Of a stretch of 64,000 bases of DNA, positions 10,224-47,491 are shown one piece after another. Source of the DNA: Nocardioides luti (GTDB lineage Bacteria; Actinomycetota; Actinomycetes; Propionibacteriales; Nocardioidaceae); NCBI RefSeq assembly GCF_014212315.1, contig NZ_JACKXE010000002.1:372001-436000 (forward strand), in the 5' to 3' direction. The notes beneath the pieces were generated by a model that saw only the letters and a program-made list of their open reading frames with translations, was not told the DNA's origin and searched no databases. A program made the position numbers and the translations under genes. The first letter of the stretch is position 1; every line of letters begins with the position of its first letter.

Positions 10224-10279
10224 CCGATCCTCCGTCTCCCACCAAGATCTTTTGTCCATTCACAGTAGACGGTAGCGAT

Positions 10280-10295
10280 ATTTCGCAAGAGTTAC
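10280..10295 (-). promoter_or_regulatory. GlnR-like box upstream of glnT
   Basis: Read on the minus strand, GTAAC, six bases, then GAAAT matches gTnAc-n6-GaAAc at nine of ten specified positions, including all of the first half. It lies about 57 bases before the glnT start. The same architecture occurs upstream of amt. Confidence 0.45.
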
Positions 10296-10365
10296 AGCGA
10301 TGGCAATTCCGTCTCTCGACCCGAGCGGTTCGCTTGCCACCGACACCGAATTTCCGAACAGGGGG

Positions 10366-10550
10366 GGGTGGCCGCGTCCACGTCATGGGGCGCGGGTGTC
10401 GGTTGACTCTTCGAGGCGAATCGACGCATCCGACGCAACGAACTGGCTGGACTTCTGCGCCGTGCCAGAGTCGACGTGGTCGCACTCGTCCTGGCTGATC
10501 CGCATCGAGCAGAACCGCACTGCCGCCACCGAGAGCGGCGTCCACAGCCG
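10366..10550 (-). pseudogene. Decayed copy of the thiC 3' end and bluB start
   Basis: Read on the minus strand, one frame encodes [15 protein letters not shown], then KSSQFVASDASIRLEE, against [15 protein letters not shown] and [16 protein letters not shown] at the C-terminus of the intact ThiC at 15035. About 40 bases later comes MTWTRP, against MTWNRP at the start of the bluB-cobT gene. So the fragment keeps the same gene junction as the intact locus at about 15.0-15.2 kb, in the same orientation. Similarity stops at both ends. It cannot encode a functional protein. Confidence 0.8.
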
Positions 10551-10569
10551 CCATCTCCTGACAACGGCG

Positions 10570-11733
10570 CTAGGCGTCTCTTCGCCGCAGTGCACTTCTG
10601 ATGAGTATGCGGAGGTACGCCATACTCGGGTATGGGTCTCGGAGGTCCCACACGGAGTGAGTGGATTTCCATGCCCTCATAAGGGGTTGCATGACCTGGC
10701 GGCCTGTGCGCCAGCCGCTACGCAGGTCGCCGTACAGCCACTGGTAGCGCATGCCGCTGCGCGCCCGCGGTGCCACGACATCGCCGATCGTGGCGGCCGT
10801 GGCCCATATTGCGGCGAGGTCGACCCCAGCGGCGGCCGCGAGCGCCATCGACCCGTAGCAGCGGCCGTTGACGTCGATGAGGAGCGGTCCTCGGGCGGAG
10901 TCGAGGAACTGTGCCTCGGCGAGGCCGCGCCAGCCGATTGAGGCTAAGAAGCTGGTGAGTAAGTCAACGAGGTCGGATTCGATCTCGACGGTCTTGGCAA
11001 AGACGCTGACGCCCGCTTCGGGAGGCCACAAGCTCATCGCTCGTTGCTGCACGGCGGCGAGCACCCGACCCTCATTACCCATGACCACCGATACGGCAAC
11101 CAGCTGTCCGGTGACGTGCTCCTGCAACAGGGGCTCCGCACCGCGTGCGCGCATAGCGCGTGCCGCCGCTCGCAGCTCATCAATGTCAGACGAGACCAAC
11201 GTCTCTGAACGCAGTTGGGCGTGGGAGCGCGACTTGAGCACTATCGTGCGGCTCACCGCGGACAGCGCCTCGTCGGTGGCCAGCTCCGTGTGCGGCACGC
11301 TCAGGCCCGCACGACGCGCGGCTGCCGTCATGTCGAGCTTGTCGAGTATCAGGCGTACGGATTGCCGGCTGCCGTACGGCACGTTGCAAGAGAGTGAGTC
11401 TCGAGATTCAGATAGCGCCAGCATCTCAGAGTCGCCGCCGGGCAGGACCACGCCATATCGTGCGGTGGCAACAGCGGCATCCACCGAGGTCACGACGTCA
11501 CGGTGCAGGGGGTGCCAGTCTTGGGTGTGACGTGATGCCCCGACAAGGCTGTTGCGCGTTGGCGTGCAGACGCCGACGTTCCAACCGAGTCGCGACAAGG
11601 ATCGTGCAGCCGCCAATAGACCGCGAGAATCATCGCTTCCGACAAGCAACACGCGGCCGGCTGCGGGGCGAGGACGCGCGAGGATGGCCGCGCGCGGATT
11701 CTCGACTCTACGGACGGAATCTGAGCCAGGCAC
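10570..11733 (-). CDS. ATP-grasp family ligase, substrate unknown
   Basis: A 387-residue protein with a Rossmann-like N-terminal region (GRVLLVGSDDSRGLLAAARSL), a pre-ATP-grasp segment with LDKLDMTAAARRAGLSVP, and an ATP-grasp core with an ATP-binding Lys (TIVLKSRSHAQ), LLQEHVTGQLVAVSVVMG and the metal site LIDVNGRCYGSMALA. It resembles carboxylate-amine ligases found beside surface-polysaccharide or peptide-modification genes. The GTG at 11731-11733 has GAGGAG four bases upstream; the frame is open further up but without such a site. It stands alone among decayed genes, so it may be the survivor of a lost cluster. Confidence 0.65.
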   Translation of the reverse strand: MPGSDSVRRVENPRAAILARPRPAAGRVLLVGSDDSRGLLAAARSLSRLGWNVGVCTPTRNSLVGASRHTQDWHPLHRDVVTSVDAAVATARYGVVLPGGDSEMLALSESRDSLSCNVPYGSRQSVRLILDKLDMTAAARRAGLSVPHTELATDEALSAVSRTIVLKSRSHAQLRSETLVSSDIDELRAAARAMRARGAEPLLQEHVTGQLVAVSVVMGNEGRVLAAVQQRAMSLWPPEAGVSVFAKTVEIESDLVDLLTSFLASIGWRGLAEAQFLDSARGPLLIDVNGRCYGSMALAAAAGVDLAAIWATAATIGDVVAPRARSGMRYQWLYGDLRSGWRTGRQVMQPLMRAWKSTHSVWDLRDPYPSMAYLRILIRSALRRRDA

Positions 11734-11904
11734 GGAACTCCTCGGGACGGACGTCGAGCAAGGACTGGTCAACCAGCAGCAGCCGCACGGGCGATCTTCG
11801 CAAGCTGTGACTTCAGTGAGATACGTCCCGGAGCACCGACCCACGTAGCCACAACCGTACGGCAGTTCAACTGGCTGAAGCCCATGAAAGCCTCCGAGCT
11901 GCGC

Positions 11905-12600
11905 CTACTCGACGCCCACGTCCAGCCACCCGCATCGCTGGTGCGTCAAGAAGCCCGAAGCGGCAAGTACCTCCGCGGGAGAGGCGGGGCACAGCGCACG
12001 ACCTAGGTCTCCGAGCGGCATCGAGGTGATCACGGTCGAGAGGTCCGACGCTCCCTCCACGAGGTTTCCGCAACCAAGGCCGGAACCACGCCGTCGCGGT
12101 GCTCGATGCGGAGAACCGGCGACTTTATATGGACGGCGGCCCCGCGCTCGACCACCCTGTCCCGCGCGCGCTTCTCTATCATGCCGGGACCAGGATGCGG
12201 ACACTGAAACTCCTCGGTCGGGCTGGTGATCTGCTTCCCGCGCCGGAGCCGCAGCGCGATGAGAACCGCACCGGGCAGCGAGAGACTTCTCGATACGCTG
12301 GGCGGCCCAGTCAGCCTGGGTGCTCGAGGCGCTGACCCCCAGACCTTCTCGGTACGTCTTGAACAAGTGCGGTGGAGCCGCCAGCCGCACCGTGCCGCGA
12401 CCCAACCCTCGAAAGACCTCTGGTCCGCGGGAGGGCCGACCCTCTGGCACAAGGCCCAGGCGAGCGGTTCCGCCGCGACCGCCCACCGCCATGAGCGGAT
12501 ACACACGTCTGCGACTCGAACGCGTGACACCTTTGACCCTGCGGACCTCGCCGTGATCGTACAGAAGATGACCACCCATCTCGATGAATCTGGGCGCGTC
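11905..12600 (-). pseudogene. Broken UDP-galactopyranose mutase-like flavoprotein
   Basis: On the minus strand two frames alternate and together give a recognisable NAD(P)/FAD oxidoreductase of the UDP-galactopyranose mutase type. In order: FIEMGGHLLYDHGEV (about 12588), PPADQRSFEGWVAARCGW (about 12431), PHLFKTY and ASSTQADWAAQRI (about 12369-12270), ITSPTEEFQCPHPGPGM through VHIKSPVLRIEHRDG (about 12240-12060), and VITSMPLGDLGRALCP (about 12040). At least four frame changes are needed. The N-terminal GxGxxG part and the C-terminal third are not seen, so the gene is dead. Confidence 0.75.
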
Positions 12601-12635
12601 GGCCTGCTCCGGGGTCAGAGTTACCAGAGGTAGCC

Positions 12636-12720
12636 TGTTACATCTCCGGTACAAGCAGCCGGCCGCCCTCGACGTTTTGTGTGGGTCAACATGGGTGAGT
12701 CATTCAGTACTGCGACGTGT
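12636..12720 (+). repeat. 85-bp dispersed element, copy A
   Basis: This stretch aligns with 47407-47491 over the same length. The best-kept parts are GTTACA-n6-GGTACAA at the left, TCGACGTTT in the middle, and GGTCA-CATGGGT-AGTCA-TCAGTACT-CGAC at the right. Copy A lies between two pseudogenes. The function is unknown; the left part looks like an operator and the right part contains an ATG. Confidence 0.6.
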
Positions 12721-12899
12721 AGCCATTTGTGCACGTCCAGCTCGAACCCGGAGTTGAACAACGAGGGCTTGGGCTTGCTGGGCCCTTGTTGCGTCCACCC
12801 GCAGGGTCACCACGGCGACTTGAAGCGCTCCGTCGGGCACTCGGTTCTTGAGACGCGAACCTCCGGCAACGGGCTCGACCAGTTGGTCGGCGTCCGTGC

Positions 12900-13326
12900 A
12901 CTTGTCGACTGATTGAGCATCAGCCGAATGCCCGAGCCGTTCTCCCGGAGAGGTAACCCGACCGCCTCTAGGATGAGGTTGTCGTAGGTGACCACAACGA
13001 GCGGTCAACGGATGCCGCAATGTGTCGTCCCAGATCGCTTCGGCACTGTCGCTGCCTTGCCAGGTGCCGTAGTGACACTCGCACGACAACGGGTCAGTCT
13101 CCGGTTCGAGCCGCAGCGTCGTGCCGATGATGGCTGCGGCCTGCTGCGCCCGGATGATGTCCGAGGTCAGCAACCGTTCTGCCCCTCGTGCGAGACAGTT
13201 GGGATCCGCCTTCGACAGCTTGGCGGCGACCGCGCTCGGTCAGTTCCGTGGAGACGGTTCGGCTCTCCACGTGCCCGGCCGCGTTCCAGGTTGACTCCCC
13301 TGTTGGATCAGCAATAGCTCCGTCAT
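12900..13326 (-). pseudogene. Broken histidine phosphatase, probable former alpha-ribazole phosphatase
   Basis: The ATG at 13324-13326 overlaps the bluB-cobT stop (ATGA), as expected for an operon member. It reads MTELLLIQQG, then a one-base shift right at the catalytic RHGE motif moves the family pattern GESTWNAAGHV...TELTERGRRQA to another frame, and the first frame resumes with LLTSDIIRAQQAAAIIG and ECHYGTWQGSDSAEA. Catalytic Arg-His are also mutated to Gln-Gln. A shorter third piece (VVTYDNLILEAVGLPL, about 12996) may be the C-terminal part. Position after cobT suggests the lost enzyme was CobC, which dephosphorylates alpha-ribazole phosphate. Confidence 0.75.
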
Positions 13327-15023
13327 GGCGCCGTGCGGCCGATCCCCTGGCGTAGCTTGAGTCCGCTGATCAGCATGGCGACCGCCAACGATGCTCCGAC
13401 GCCCTCCCCGGCCCGGAGGCGCAGGTCGAGCAACGGTTCGAGACCCAGGTGCTCCAGGACGGCAGCGTGTGCGCGTTCGCGGCTGCGCTGGCCGGCTACG
13501 AGGTACGCCGCAGCACCGGGCTCGATGCGCACGGCGACCAGCGCCGCGACGCTCGTGGCGAGGCCATCCAGGACGCTGACCGCTCCGGTCGACGCGGCGC
13601 CGAGCACGGCGCCGGCGAGGACGCAGAACTCCGGTCCGCCGACGGCGGCCAGCACCTGCTCAGGGAGGAGCCGGTCCTCTCCGCTCCCTGCACGCATCCG
13701 CGCCACCGCGGCTTCCACGACTTCGGTCTTACGCCGCACCATCGTGGTGTCCGCGCCTGCCCCGAGCCCCACCACCTCGGCGGCGGACAGGTCGAGCAGC
13801 GCTGCTGCAAGAGCCGCAGCCACGGTGGTGTTGCCGATGCCGACCTCTCCGAGGGCCACCAGCCGGTGCTCCTGTCCTGCATCTGCCCCGCGTCGTCGGC
13901 CACGCTCGATCAGGCTTGAGACCTGTTCGGCGGTGAGGGCGTCGGTTGTCACGAGGTCACCGGTCGCCGAACCCGCGTCGACTACCTCGAAGTCGAGGCC
14001 GGCGGCTGCCGCGGCGACCGCACCGGCGGACTCCCCGACGTGGCTGGCCGCAATCACGTCCTCAGTCACGGAGTCGCGGTAGGCGGAGACGCCGTGGGCA
14101 GTCACCGGGTGCCGTCCGGCCACCAGCAGCAACCGGCCGGTGGGGGTATGGTGCGCGCGTCCCTGCATCGCGGCCTCGACCCGGTCGACGTAGCGGTCCA
14201 GCAGGCCGAGGGATCCCGGCGGCGAGAGCAGTACGTCGGCATGGTCCCGCGCTCCCACCACGGCGTCGTTCTGCGGGGCCCGCAGGTGCGAGGGCGGTGC
14301 CGGCGTGGTTACGCTCCACCGCTCGGCGAAGATCACGTCCTCGACCGGCTGACGCCGCGACCAGCCTGCCCGCTCCAGTCCCGGGGCGGGCGGCCGCTCG
14401 TCGGGCCACCCAAGGCAGAGCCAGCCCAGTGTGACCACTCCATCAGGCACGCCAACCAGACCCTCGAGGTCCTTCTGCTCGAAGAGGGTGACCCAGCCGA
14501 TGCCCAGGCCCTCGGCGCGCGCGGCCAGCCAGAGGTTCTGGATGGCGCATGCGCACGACCACACATCGGCGTCGGGGAACGTCGCCCGGCCGAGCACCCC
14601 CGCAGCCGCCGTGCGCCGGTCGCAGGCGACGACCACGCCGAGCGGAGCCTCGCGGATGCCTTCGAGCTGCAGGTCGAGCAACCGCCGGCCCGCCTCGGGG
14701 TCCATCTGGCGGGCCTGACGCAGCCGCTGCTCGTCGGCCATCCGGGCGGCCCGGTCCCGGGTGGCCGGATCGGAGACCACGATGAACCGCCAGGGCTGGC
14801 TGTGCCCGACCGACGGCGCCATGTGTGCAGCCGCCAGCACACGGCGCACCGTCTCCGGGTCGACCGGGTCGGGCCGGAAGCGGCGTACGTCTCGACGGGC
14901 AGCGACGACGTCGTAGAACGTCTCCCGGGCGGTCTGCGGGAAGGCCCAGCCCTCGACCTCGGCGGCCCGCTCGGCCGCCGAGGTCTGGTCACCGAGGAGG
15001 GGTACCGGGCGGTTCCAGGTCAT
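13323..15023 (-). CDS. bluB-cobT: Fusion of BluB (DMB synthase) and CobT phosphoribosyltransferase
   Basis: A 566-residue two-domain protein. Residues about 25-245 are a BluB flavin-destructase/nitroreductase domain (ARRDVRRFRPDPVDPETVR, MAPSVGHSQPWRF) that makes 5,6-dimethylbenzimidazole from FMNH2 and oxygen. Residues about 265-566 are CobT, which activates it with nicotinate mononucleotide; the signature LGEVGIGNTTVAAAL carries the catalytic Glu region. The ATG at 15021-15023 lies 11 bases after thiC; the longer open frame upstream lies only inside thiC. The gene is therefore the tail of the thiamine operon. Its stop overlaps the start of a broken phosphatase gene. Confidence 0.93.
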   Translation of the reverse strand: MTWNRPVPLLGDQTSAAERAAEVEGWAFPQTARETFYDVVAARRDVRRFRPDPVDPETVRRVLAAAHMAPSVGHSQPWRFIVVSDPATRDRAARMADEQRLRQARQMDPEAGRRLLDLQLEGIREAPLGVVVACDRRTAAAGVLGRATFPDADVWSCACAIQNLWLAARAEGLGIGWVTLFEQKDLEGLVGVPDGVVTLGWLCLGWPDERPPAPGLERAGWSRRQPVEDVIFAERWSVTTPAPPSHLRAPQNDAVVGARDHADVLLSPPGSLGLLDRYVDRVEAAMQGRAHHTPTGRLLLVAGRHPVTAHGVSAYRDSVTEDVIAASHVGESAGAVAAAAAGLDFEVVDAGSATGDLVTTDALTAEQVSSLIERGRRRGADAGQEHRLVALGEVGIGNTTVAAALAAALLDLSAAEVVGLGAGADTTMVRRKTEVVEAAVARMRAGSGEDRLLPEQVLAAVGGPEFCVLAGAVLGAASTGAVSVLDGLATSVAALVAVRIEPGAAAYLVAGQRSRERAHAAVLEHLGLEPLLDLRLRAGEGVGASLAVAMLISGLKLRQGIGRTAP

Positions 15024-15034
15024 GGGGCGCGAGT

Positions 15035-20200
<5,166 letters not shown>

Positions 20201-20204
<4 letters not shown>

Positions 20205-20830
20205 GACGTGTGAACGAGCTCGGCGATCTCCCGGGCCGCGCCGGGTGGGTCGGGGTCCTTCCAGACGGCGGCGACCACGGCGACGCCATGGGCACCGGAG
20301 GTCATCACGTCGCGCACCCGCGCCGCGGTGATCCCCCCGATCGCGATCGCCGGGATCTCCCGTGCGGTCGCGGCGAGCACGTCGAGACCGAGGGGGTCAG
20401 GCAACCCGTCCTTGGTCGAGGTGGCGTGCACCGGACCCACCCCGGCGTAGTCGGCGCCCTCGGCCCGCGCTGCGATCGCGTGCTCCGGACCACGGCAGGT
20501 GGCACCGACCAGGAAGTCCACCGGGGCGAGCGCCCGCGCGTCCGCGACGGACAAGTCGTTCCGGCCGAGGTGCACCCCGTGCGCCCCGGCGGCGAGTGCG
20601 ACGTCGAGGCGGTCGTTGACGATCACCCGCGTCCCCCGTGGCGCGAGCTCGGCCAGCAGCTCACGCGTCCAGGCGACGACCTCACGGTCACTGGCTTGCT
20701 TTGCACGGACCTGGACCGCGTCGACGCGCGGAGTGCCGACGGCGCCCTCGCCAACGACGGCGAGCAGGCGCGTCAACGCATCCCGATCGAGGGGTCCGAA
20801 ATCGGTGATCAGGTGGAACCGTGGCAACAC
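20201..20830 (-). CDS. thiE: Thiamine phosphate synthase ThiE
   Basis: A 209-residue TIM-barrel enzyme that joins HMP pyrophosphate and thiazole phosphate. Signatures are VQVRAKQASDREV, VNDRLDVALAAGAHGVHLGRND, ADYAGVGPVHATSTK and IGGITAARVRDVMTSGAHGVAVV. It is the first gene after the TPP riboswitch and starts with GTG. It keeps the full active-site set, in contrast to the second ThiE-like protein downstream. Confidence 0.95.
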
Positions 20831-20834
20831 GTCG

Positions 20835-20940
20835 ATCTCACTTCCTTCGCCGGCATGATCCGGAGCAGGTTCGACGGTCGGGGCGGCATCAGCCCCATCT
20901 CAGCCCGATGCATCGGGCTCCCGTGTGGATGCGGAGGACA
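20835..20940 (-). promoter_or_regulatory. TPP riboswitch (thi box)
   Basis: On the minus strand the conserved thi-box elements are in order: GGGCTGAGATGGGGC at about 20893-20907, then AACCTGCTCCGGATCATGCC followed by GGCGAAGGAAG (about 20842-20872). The 3' end lies about 10 bases before the thiE GTG, so it probably controls translation initiation or early termination. It heads the whole thi operon including bluB-cobT. Confidence 0.93.
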
Positions 20941-21248: not shown

Positions 21249-22082
21249 GTGCCCCTCCCACCCGTTCGACTCCGCCGTGACCGGTGCCCCGGCGTGCTCC
21301 GCCCCTGGCCCGCCGACGACGGCGCACTGATTCGCCTGCGTCTGGCCGGCGGCCACCTCCCAGCCGGATCCCTTGAGATCCTCGCGCAGGTGGCGCACGA
21401 CCACGGCGACGGGCAGGTCTACCTCACGGGGCGTGCCAACCTGCAGCTGCGCGCGCTGCCGTTCGTCGGCGGCCAGCTTCCTGACGAGGTGGTGGACGCC
21501 GTCGTGGGGACCGGTCTGCTCCCCTCGCGCAGCCACGAGCTCGCACGCAACCTGATGTGCTCCCCGCTCACCGGGATCTCCGGAGGTCGGGCCGACCTGC
21601 GGCCGGTGGTCCATGAGCTCGACGAGCGCCTCTGTGCCTTACCTGAACTGGCCGCACTGCCGGGCCGGTTCCTGTTCGTGCTCGACGACGGCCGGGGCGA
21701 CCTCGTCGACCGCGAAACCGACCTCGGTGCCGTGGTCCTCGACGCGGACACCGCCCAGCTCAGGGTCGGCGCGGGCTGGGGTGCGGTCGTCCCACTGCCC
21801 GACGTCGCCGAGGAGTTGGTCCAGCTGGCCCACCGCTTCCTGCTGGAGCGCGGCCACGACGAGACGGCCGCCTGGCACGTCGCCGAGCTCGAGTCCCCGC
21901 TGGCGCCTCCCGCGCCAGGCGACGCCCGAGTACCCGCCGCCTCCGGCATCCCGTCGTACGACGGAGTGCTGCACGTGCCCGTCCCGGACGGCGTCCTCAC
22001 GCCCGACCTCGTCGGCGACCTGGTCGGACCCGGTCACGACCTGGTGGTCACCCCGTGGCACGGCGTGGTGGTGACGCCATGA
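21249..22082 (+). CDS. cobG: Short CobG-like precorrin-3B synthase
   Basis: A 277-residue protein of the nitrite/sulfite reductase ferredoxin-like half-domain family (GGHLPAGSLEILAQVAHDHG, VYLTGRANLQLRAL, RNLMCSPLTGISGG, LPGRFLFVLDDGRGDL). CobG hydroxylates precorrin-3A with oxygen and normally has more than 400 residues with a four-cysteine 4Fe-4S/siroheme-type domain; that cysteine set is not visible here. First gene of cobG-cobH-cobIJ under a cobalamin riboswitch, GTG start, stop overlapping cobH (ATGA). Confidence 0.8.
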   Translation: MPLPPVRLRRDRCPGVLRPWPADDGALIRLRLAGGHLPAGSLEILAQVAHDHGDGQVYLTGRANLQLRALPFVGGQLPDEVVDAVVGTGLLPSRSHELARNLMCSPLTGISGGRADLRPVVHELDERLCALPELAALPGRFLFVLDDGRGDLVDRETDLGAVVLDADTAQLRVGAGWGAVVPLPDVAEELVQLAHRFLLERGHDETAAWHVAELESPLAPPAPGDARVPAASGIPSYDGVLHVPVPDGVLTPDLVGDLVGPGHDLVVTPWHGVVVTP

Positions 22083-32884: not shown

Positions 32885-33652
32885 GTGCCTGACTCCTGGC
32901 GCCTCGCGGTGGGCACCCTGACCGTCCTGAGGGGCCCGGCTCCCCGCTGCGTGGACCGCCGTACCGCAGGGGCGGCGATGCTGATCGCCCCCCTGGCCGT
33001 GCTCCCGCTCGGTGCGGGCGTCGCGCTGGTGCTGCTGGCCGGCCGCGCGGCGCACCTGCCTCCGCTCGTGACCGGCATGCTCGCGGTCGCAGTGCTCGTG
33101 CTGGGCACGCGCGCCTTCCATGTCGACGGGCTGTCCGACACCGTCGACGGGCTGACCGCCTCCTACGACCGGGAGCGGTCGCTGGCCGCCATGCGCACCG
33201 GGACGTCGGGGCCGGCCGGCGGCGCGGCGGTCCTGCTGGTGCTCGGGCTGCAAGCGACGTCGATGGCCTGGTTGGCGGGCCAAGCACGCGGCGCCGTGCT
33301 CGTCGGCACCCTCGTGTGCGTGTCGCGCTGCGCGCTGGCGCTCACCTGCCTCCGCGGCGTGCCGGCCGCTCGCGACGACGGACTCGGGGCGGTCTTCACG
33401 GAGTCGGTCCCCCGCCTCGCCGCAGCGACCTCCATGCTCCTCTCCTTCGTAGCCGTCGGTCTGGTCACCGGGTGGGCCGGGCTGCCGTGGTGGCGCGGGG
33501 TCATCGCCGTCGCCCTGGGTCTCGTCGTCACCCTGCTGCTCGTACGCCGCGCCGTACGCCGCCTCGGTGGGGTGACGGGCGACGTCTTCGGGGCCGCGGT
33601 CGAGCTGTGCCTGGCGACCCTTCTCGTCGCTCTGGCCGGGGCCACTTCGTGA
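32885..33652 (+). CDS. cobS: Adenosylcobinamide-GDP ribazoletransferase CobS (CobV)
   Basis: A 255-residue membrane enzyme that joins alpha-ribazole (phosphate) with adenosylcobinamide-GDP. The aspartate motif FHVDGLSDTVDGLTA (about 80-94) is the CDP-alcohol-like catalytic site. GTG start six bases after cbtA; the stop overlaps cobD (GTGA). Confidence 0.95.
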   Translation: MPDSWRLAVGTLTVLRGPAPRCVDRRTAGAAMLIAPLAVLPLGAGVALVLLAGRAAHLPPLVTGMLAVAVLVLGTRAFHVDGLSDTVDGLTASYDRERSLAAMRTGTSGPAGGAAVLLVLGLQATSMAWLAGQARGAVLVGTLVCVSRCALALTCLRGVPAARDDGLGAVFTESVPRLAAATSMLLSFVAVGLVTGWAGLPWWRGVIAVALGLVVTLLLVRRAVRRLGGVTGDVFGAAVELCLATLLVALAGATS

Positions 33653-34590: not shown

Positions 34591-35118
34591 TCAGAGCACC
34601 AGCGCCCGCCCGGCCACCACGAAGTGGACCTCGTCGCAGGCGGCCGCCAGGCGCTGGTTCACGGTGCCGAGCACGTCGCGGAAGAGACGCCCGGAGCGGT
34701 GTTCGGGAACCACGCCGAGGCCGACCTCGTTGGTGACCAACACGACCGGGCCCGACGCTGAAGCCAGGGCCGCCACAGCCGTCTCCACCCGGGAGTCGAC
34801 CAGGGCCCGCACCTCGTCCGAGGGTAGTTCCCACGCCTTCGCCTCGTCGAGAATGGCCGCGAGCCAGGTGCCCAGGCAGTCCACGAGCACCGCTCCGTCC
34901 AGCGAGAGCGCGGCAGCCAGGTCGCGTGACTCCAGCGTGGTCCAGGTCGCCGGTCTGCGTGCTCGGTGCGCGGTGATGCGCGCGGCCCAGTCCGGGTCGG
35001 GGTCATCGACAGGGGTCGGCCCCGGAGCGACGTAGGTGACCGACTCCTCATGCTTCAGCAGGCCCTCGGCGTGGCCGGACTTCCCGGACCGGACGCCCCC
35101 GGTCACCAGCACCTTCAC
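34591..35118 (-). CDS. cobU: Adenosylcobinamide kinase/GMP transferase CobU (CobP)
   Basis: A 175-residue bifunctional enzyme. The P-loop is GGVRSGKS (7-14); AHRARRPATW contains the histidine expected to accept GMP; VLVTNEVGLGVVPEH and FRDVLGTVNQRLA are family signatures. Its start overlaps the cobK stop by four bases, so it is the last gene of the minus cobN operon. Confidence 0.95.
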   Translation of the reverse strand: MKVLVTGGVRSGKSGHAEGLLKHEESVTYVAPGPTPVDDPDPDWAARITAHRARRPATWTTLESRDLAAALSLDGAVLVDCLGTWLAAILDEAKAWELPSDEVRALVDSRVETAVAALASASGPVVLVTNEVGLGVVPEHRSGRLFRDVLGTVNQRLAAACDEVHFVVAGRALVL

Positions 35119-47406: not shown

Positions 47407-47491
47407 CGTTACACACGTGGTACAAACGAACATCAGCCGTTCGACGTTTGCGCAGGTCAGCATGGGTCAGTCAGTCAGTACTACGACATCT
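47407..47491 (+). repeat. 85-bp dispersed element, copy B
   Basis: Same length and order of conserved blocks as 12636-12720. It contains GTTACA-n6-GGTACAA, TCGACGTTT and GGTCAGCATGGGTCAGTCAG. It is followed directly by a REP-like hairpin. The surrounding 47214-47836 contains no convincing gene. Confidence 0.6.

Follow-up and report, generated by a model that had tools for sequence, protein, structure and literature searches.

Probable repeated decay of a cobC-like phosphatase gene behind a conserved bluB-cobT fusion in Nocardioides luti and related loci

As described in PMC8749415, CobS attaches alpha-ribazole phosphate to the corrin ring, giving adenosylcobalamin (AdoCbl) phosphate, and the CobC of Salmonella acts last, on AdoCbl-5'-phosphate. 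In Propionibacterium freudenreichii, the BluB/CobT2 fusion makes alpha-ribazole phosphate from flavin-derived DMB, and the words 'phosphatase' and 'cobC' are absent from the main text of that report (PMC4657239, main text). Mycobacterium smegmatis lacking an RNase H-CobC protein (MSMEG_4305) has less B12 in acidic or starved culture; B12 was not abolished, and the authors of that study suspect an additional enzyme (PMC7466739, in part). The locus described here resembles all three systems. Its bluB-cobT fusion has the same two domains as BluB/CobT2, in the same order, but is set in a row of thiamin genes that has cobC as its tail. This tail belongs, like Salmonella CobC and the TIGR03162 family, to histidine phosphatase branch 1, and it is ATGA-coupled to the gene making alpha-ribazole phosphate; in contrast to those proteins, the copy here is dead and an intact relative falls under the TIGR03162 cut-off. 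The genome also encodes a protein of the MSMEG_4305 type (NF005567), whose CobC-type domain contributes to B12 in M. smegmatis, but this homologue is at a separate locus and is a proposed stand-in.

The window, a stretch of 64,000 nucleotides (genome G000, contig C2, positions 372,001 to 436,000) from the 4.52-Mb, three-contig genome of Nocardioides luti, carries on its minus strand the row thiE, thiO, thiG, thiE-like, thiD, thiC and bluB-cobT, followed by the remains of cobC (Table 1). ThiC, ThiD, ThiO and ThiE passed curated cut-offs in a profile scan; thiG and the second thiE gave no profile match at the threshold used and are named from reading of the sequence. The BluB half of the fusion passed its cut-off, and the CobT half scored 215 bits on TIGR03160 (cut-off 319), matching model positions 4-324 of 334. 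The B12 gene bluB-cobT thus sits inside a thiamin row (13323-20830, minus strand) headed by a TPP riboswitch. The same thi gene order with a TPP riboswitch was present at four other loci (L171, L172, L078 and L141), and none of the literature titles surveyed concerned bluB or cobT with a TPP riboswitch and thiC.

Table 1 Features of the window, with strand and supporting evidence
Feature	Position	Strand	Evidence or remark
Fossil thiC 3' end and first bluB codons	10377..10515	-	74% over 139 bases to 15014-15152, E 2e-19
cobC-like histidine phosphatase pseudogene	12838..13326	-	Start overlaps bluB-cobT stop; lower limit approximate
84-base deletion site relative to L157	13016..13020 approx.	-	Position 307 of intact gene
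RHG motif remains	13299..13305 approx.	-	Arg codon to Gln, one-base deletion in His codon; alignment with L157, L161, L169
bluB-cobT fusion, intact	13323..15023	-	BluB TIGR02476 236 bits, cut-off 150
thiC, directly upstream of bluB-cobT	15035..16711	-	NF006763 928.5 bits, cut-off 650
TPP riboswitch, head of row	20825..20934	-	Rfam RF00059 62.5 bits
cobS, open frame	32885..33652	+	TIGR00317 94.9 bits, below cut-off 110
cobU, intact	34591..35118	-	NF004469 163.8 bits, cut-off 161

A first-pass annotation had described a dead alpha-ribazole phosphatase gene still coupled to cobT. The coupling was borne out: the bluB-cobT stop (TGA, 13325-13323) and the phosphatase start (ATG, 13326-13324) form an ATGA overlap on the minus strand (13326-13323), and intact relatives with the same overlap exist. 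The frame from this ATG reads MTELLLIQQGSQPGTRPG... and ends after 28 residues. That the remains read as a histidine phosphatase also held. Pfam His_Phos_1 (PF00300) covers one piece, in a single 157-aa frame (12700-13173), with 28.4 bits against a cut-off of 21.7, and a whole-genome search with this family recovers the same fragment. Frameshift-tolerant protein-to-DNA alignment to the intact gene of genome G350 spans residues 1-165 of 166, with 68 identities in 136 and a score of 242 compared to at most 36 in six shuffles. Homology to this 166-aa gene stops near 12915, and likeness to the longer, 190-aa frame of locus L157 extends to approximately 12838; the annotated upper limit (13326) therefore stands and the lower one (12900) was slightly short. 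Among the five intact copies found in relatives, L082 was scanned against TIGR03162 (CobC), which was its top NCBIfam model with 68.3 bits (cut-off 162.9; PF00300, 127 bits). Because L082 lies below the curated cut-off, we take the substrate of cobC from the position of the gene.

Branch 1 of the histidine phosphatase superfamily is marked by an RHG motif near the N terminus. In the nearest relative found (L157 in genome G496, BluB-CobT 97% identical), cobC is intact, with RHG and the same overlap. Compared to it, the window copy has lost the RHG motif of PF00300 and carries four indels (-1 in the motif His codon, +1, +1 and -84), one of which, the +1 beside the 84-base deletion, is alignment-dependent. 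The annotation had ascribed the loss of RHGE to a frameshift plus two substitutions. The frameshift is confirmed, but only one substitution (Arg to Gln) separates the motif from L157; the second 'Q' is read because of the one-base deletion. The two +1 shifts and the 84-base deletion are lesions beyond those listed before.

Changes were polarised with L161 and L169, at sites where both agree. The window lineage of cobC accumulated 40 changes (19/10/11 by codon position, without third-position excess), of which 27 were G/C to A/T and 5 the reverse. The intact L157 lineage had 12 changes (5/3/4), likewise without third-position excess, which may reflect relaxed selection there or merely few changes; at this short distance, codon bias appears to part dead from living cobC weakly. 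For bluB-cobT, differences between the window and L157 fell 9/5/34 with a dN/dS of 0.19, and dN/dS was 0.10-0.21 across 12 relatives; judged by these ratios, the fusion is under purifying selection. With several disabling lesions relative to an intact orthologue at the corresponding position, and with codon constraint lost, the window cobC is almost certainly a pseudogene. Could the remains instead make a useful shorter protein, or be read by programmed frameshifting? The 157-aa frame does hold the PF00300 piece, but third-position excess is absent, the motif Arg and His are lost and 84 bases are deleted; we reject a functional short frame as highly improbable. Sequencing or assembly error is a comparably negligible explanation: metagenome bins sharing one series of names (RYN_) account for at least four of the broken-cobC relatives, but the 1.7-kb bluB-cobT frame is free of internal stops in all seven broken-cobC loci, and the window lesions are many and of several kinds, including the 84-base deletion and the 40 polarised substitutions. 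It too was rejected.

To place the window among relatives, we identified BluB-CobT fusions or pieces in 38 of the 391 genomes sampled from the order (E <= 1e-60) and in 20 of 341 genomes of the family (E <= 1e-100); named records held at least 80 BluB-CobT loci, partly from the same genomes. We examined 22 loci, namely the 20 of the family minus that of G417, whose contig ends inside bluB-cobT, plus those of G295, G387 and Nocardia australiensis (L082). Frameshift-tolerant alignment of the sequence behind the fusion, the comparison of relatives that the annotation had proposed, found cobC intact in 5 loci (L157/G496, L161/G467, L169/G520, L042/G350 and L082), broken in 7 (the window, L077/G449, L078/G523, L079/G519, L162/G525, L080/G295 and L043/G259) and none in 10. 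Three of these assignments depend on how marginal alignments were scored: L166 was in between (77, shuffles at most 44) and was scored as 'none', with the gene start missing at the junction, and L078 (98 versus 60) and L080 (92 versus 52) were scored as broken, with 5' ends matching intact genes base by base. The broken call for L043 consists of one frame break and an out-of-frame start. In a coarser look at 44 of the at least 80 named loci, an open frame with an early RHG lay directly behind the fusion in L080, L082 and L092, the last of which is hardly a phosphatase. A tblastn search of the loci with the L082 protein found related phosphatases near the fusion, without overlap, in seven (L103, L121, L125, L131, L132, L136 and L137).

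The intact and broken copies are interspersed in a tree built from the DNA of 25 fusions, whose bootstrap values are not fully settled. The intact L157 groups with the window and L077 (99/100), and these three join L078 and L079 (100/100). L162 groups with L080 (100/100), apart from the window group, L043 lies outside a group (100/99) holding the intact L042, and the intact L161, L169 and L042 are among the remaining loci. On the premise that a dead gene cannot revive, we read at least four deaths from this tree; an unordered count by the program gave four changes for 'broken', three of them forced by supported branches. In a tree of the 3' half of the fusion, which adjoins cobC, L078 separates from L079 (96/87), L162 groups with L080 (92/82) and the window with L157 (83/56), and the same premise yields at least five deaths. 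No identical indel was found among the cobC copies of the window, L077, L078 and L079. A +1 is present in each of the window, L077 and L078 copies, all three within seven bases (positions 292-298) of a loosely aligning stretch, at different places and with different flanking bases. The Arg-to-Gln change is common to the window and L077, which group at 85/69, so a single origin of both deaths is possible. Near base 110, L162 and L080 both depart from L161 at a similar position, and they may share a change there. These comparisons point to four to seven deaths of cobC, with five the most likely number, and we consider it very probable that the gene was lost several separate times.

The fusion itself appears to have moved between hosts. 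The dS of bluB-cobT between the window and G496, G449, G523 and G519 was 0.07, 0.12, 0.17 and 0.18, respectively, compared to 0.34-0.51 for gpm in the same four genomes and 0.42-0.56 for the RNase H-CobC gene in three of them (not found in G523). G350 is the nearest genome by gpm (92% identical), yet its bluB-cobT dS was 1.14. These values indicate an exchange of the bluB-cobT segment between hosts that postdates the divergence of the two chromosomal genes. The dS of thiC was intermediate (0.17, 0.21 and 0.24 for G496, G523 and G519), between bluB-cobT and the host genes, and thus the block is not uniform. In G467 (L161/L172), bluB closely resembles that of the window over its first ~450 bases, and the remainder is far more diverged; on this pattern, its bluB-cobT is a recombination mosaic with a breakpoint inside the fusion. 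Plasmid carriage was rejected: with BluB-CobT as the tblastn query, a set of 72,556 plasmid records yielded 152, none with at least 80% query cover and all below 60% identity.

Behind cobC (up to ~4.6 kb, 11 loci), blastn at E <= 1e-8 gave a single match past base 620, of 97 bases between the window and L080, inside the glutamine synthetase-like gene of the window. Because matches stop at approximately base 620, the shared block seems to end with cobC. Past the pseudogene, a search of the next 2.6 kb (10260-12890) in eight genomes matched the ATP-grasp paralogue, thiC-bluB junctions and a few pieces below 50 bases, together with 70 bases at 86% in G496, which are the end of the G496 cobC. The ATP-grasp gene (10570-11844, minus strand) matches 1.07 kb at C1:3867071-3868144 with 72% identity, and a 48-base stretch at 12669-12716 is similar (83%) to 47441-47487. 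The fossil thiC-bluB junction (Table 1) is a direct repeat of the live one, in the same orientation, and the two flank the bluB-cobT/pseudogene segment; it could have been left by an older resident copy or by the insertion. In G449 such a junction occurs a second time, on another contig.

The annotation had also taken CobS and CobU to be intact. This held for CobU, which passed its cut-off, and in part for CobS, an open frame scoring below its own. CobS was matched in 21 of the 22 genomes, over the cut-off in 2, and the one miss was in a genome 84% complete. These results bear on whether the whole B12 pathway is decaying, with cobC the first gene to go and the host a present or coming B12 auxotroph. 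Another gene may indeed be short: in the B12 island, a 277-aa CobG frame (21249-22082, plus strand) matches the first 169 of 388 model positions and is short or truncated. Against decay, cobI/J, cobM, cobL, cobN, a chelatase subunit, cobO, cobB/C, cobQ, cobK, cobU and bluB-cobT are all open frames with family matches, the fusion is constrained in the 12 relatives at the low dN/dS given above, and CobS is matched almost throughout. We rejected whole-pathway decay, which seems improbable.

If the pathway runs, a phosphatase is needed. The annotation had proposed that the phosphate is removed by another enzyme or kept until the end of the pathway. The latter is no alternative: Salmonella CobC itself acts last and a phosphatase is still required (PMC8749415, in part). 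The former is plausible and has partial support, with 11 other PF00300 genes in the host genome (13 matches minus the pseudogene and a second gpm piece). The foremost is an RNase H/acid phosphatase (NF005567, 444 bits, cut-off 326; model positions 2-372 of 378) with both domains and the RHG motif, encoded on the same contig as the window, ~95 kb from the cobC remains. An MSMEG_4193-family gene (319 bits, cut-off 204) and gpm (454 bits, cut-off 366) also passed; of eight host PF00300 genes scanned, four matched only under the cut-offs and one gave no hit at the threshold used.

The presence of the RNase H-CobC protein does not, however, predict the loss. The RNase H-CobC family was over the cut-off in 13 of the 22 genomes, including four of the seven with broken cobC (G000, G449, G519 and G259); it was not over the cut-off in G523 (87% complete) or G525 (95%), and the best match in G295 was the RNase H part only. 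Four genomes with intact cobC were searched: the protein was over the cut-off in G496 and G467 but not G520, and G350 had its phosphatase half alone (233 bits). Intact and broken genomes were not separated, and RNase H-CobC as a predictor of cobC loss was rejected. By itself it would not explain the loss pattern, and redundancy is likely. A rival reading dispenses with any single replacement: low-specificity phosphatases would suffice, and cobC would be near neutral in the clade whatever else the genome carries. G523 and G525, in which cobC is broken and RNase H-CobC does not pass the cut-off, do have several weaker family matches, and the intact cobC of L161 and L169 show a dN/dS of 0.75 over 193 codons, as if relaxed; intact copies may already be under relaxed selection. 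But L157, L161 and L169 keep long open frames and motifs, a third-position excess between L161 and L157 (17/19/46) argues that selection held for a time, and G523 and G525 are fragmented assemblies. We regard near-neutrality as unlikely, although less so than decay of the pathway.

The reading we prefer, as the moderately probable one, is that cobC, the last gene of the thiE...thiC-bluB-cobT-cobC row, died by redundancy. Resident histidine phosphatases, the RNase H-CobC fusion protein first and then other members of the family, would dephosphorylate alpha-ribazole phosphate or AdoCbl phosphate; cobC would thereby become redundant in these hosts, and the tail gene would drift to death with bluB-cobT kept. 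That such stand-in phosphatases are the reason for the loss is the part on which we lean only slightly to the affirmative side. More tentatively, and with rather more doubt than belief, the horizontally travelling thiC-bluB-cobT-cobC segment may repeatedly shed its phosphatase in new hosts because, of all B12 steps, the nucleotide-loop phosphatase alone could be supplied by any actinobacterial host; if so, retention of cobC would report the quality of the host's own phosphatases.

A pseudogene arising by redundancy is of an already known kind, and its recurrence beside a conserved, horizontally exchanged partner is unusual; among the titles and abstract openings returned by a literature search, none concerned recurrent loss of a bluB-cobT-linked cobC. 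The pattern suggests that other enzymes readily take over this step of B12 synthesis. If true, these loci would provide several natural cobC knock-outs beside intact orthologues, in close species and with the partner gene under selection, and thus a ready comparison for tracing the stand-in enzyme that dephosphorylates the lower-ligand nucleotide of B12 and for addressing why the step is dispensable. It would also carry a warning that a missing cobC is poor ground for calling B12 auxotrophy.
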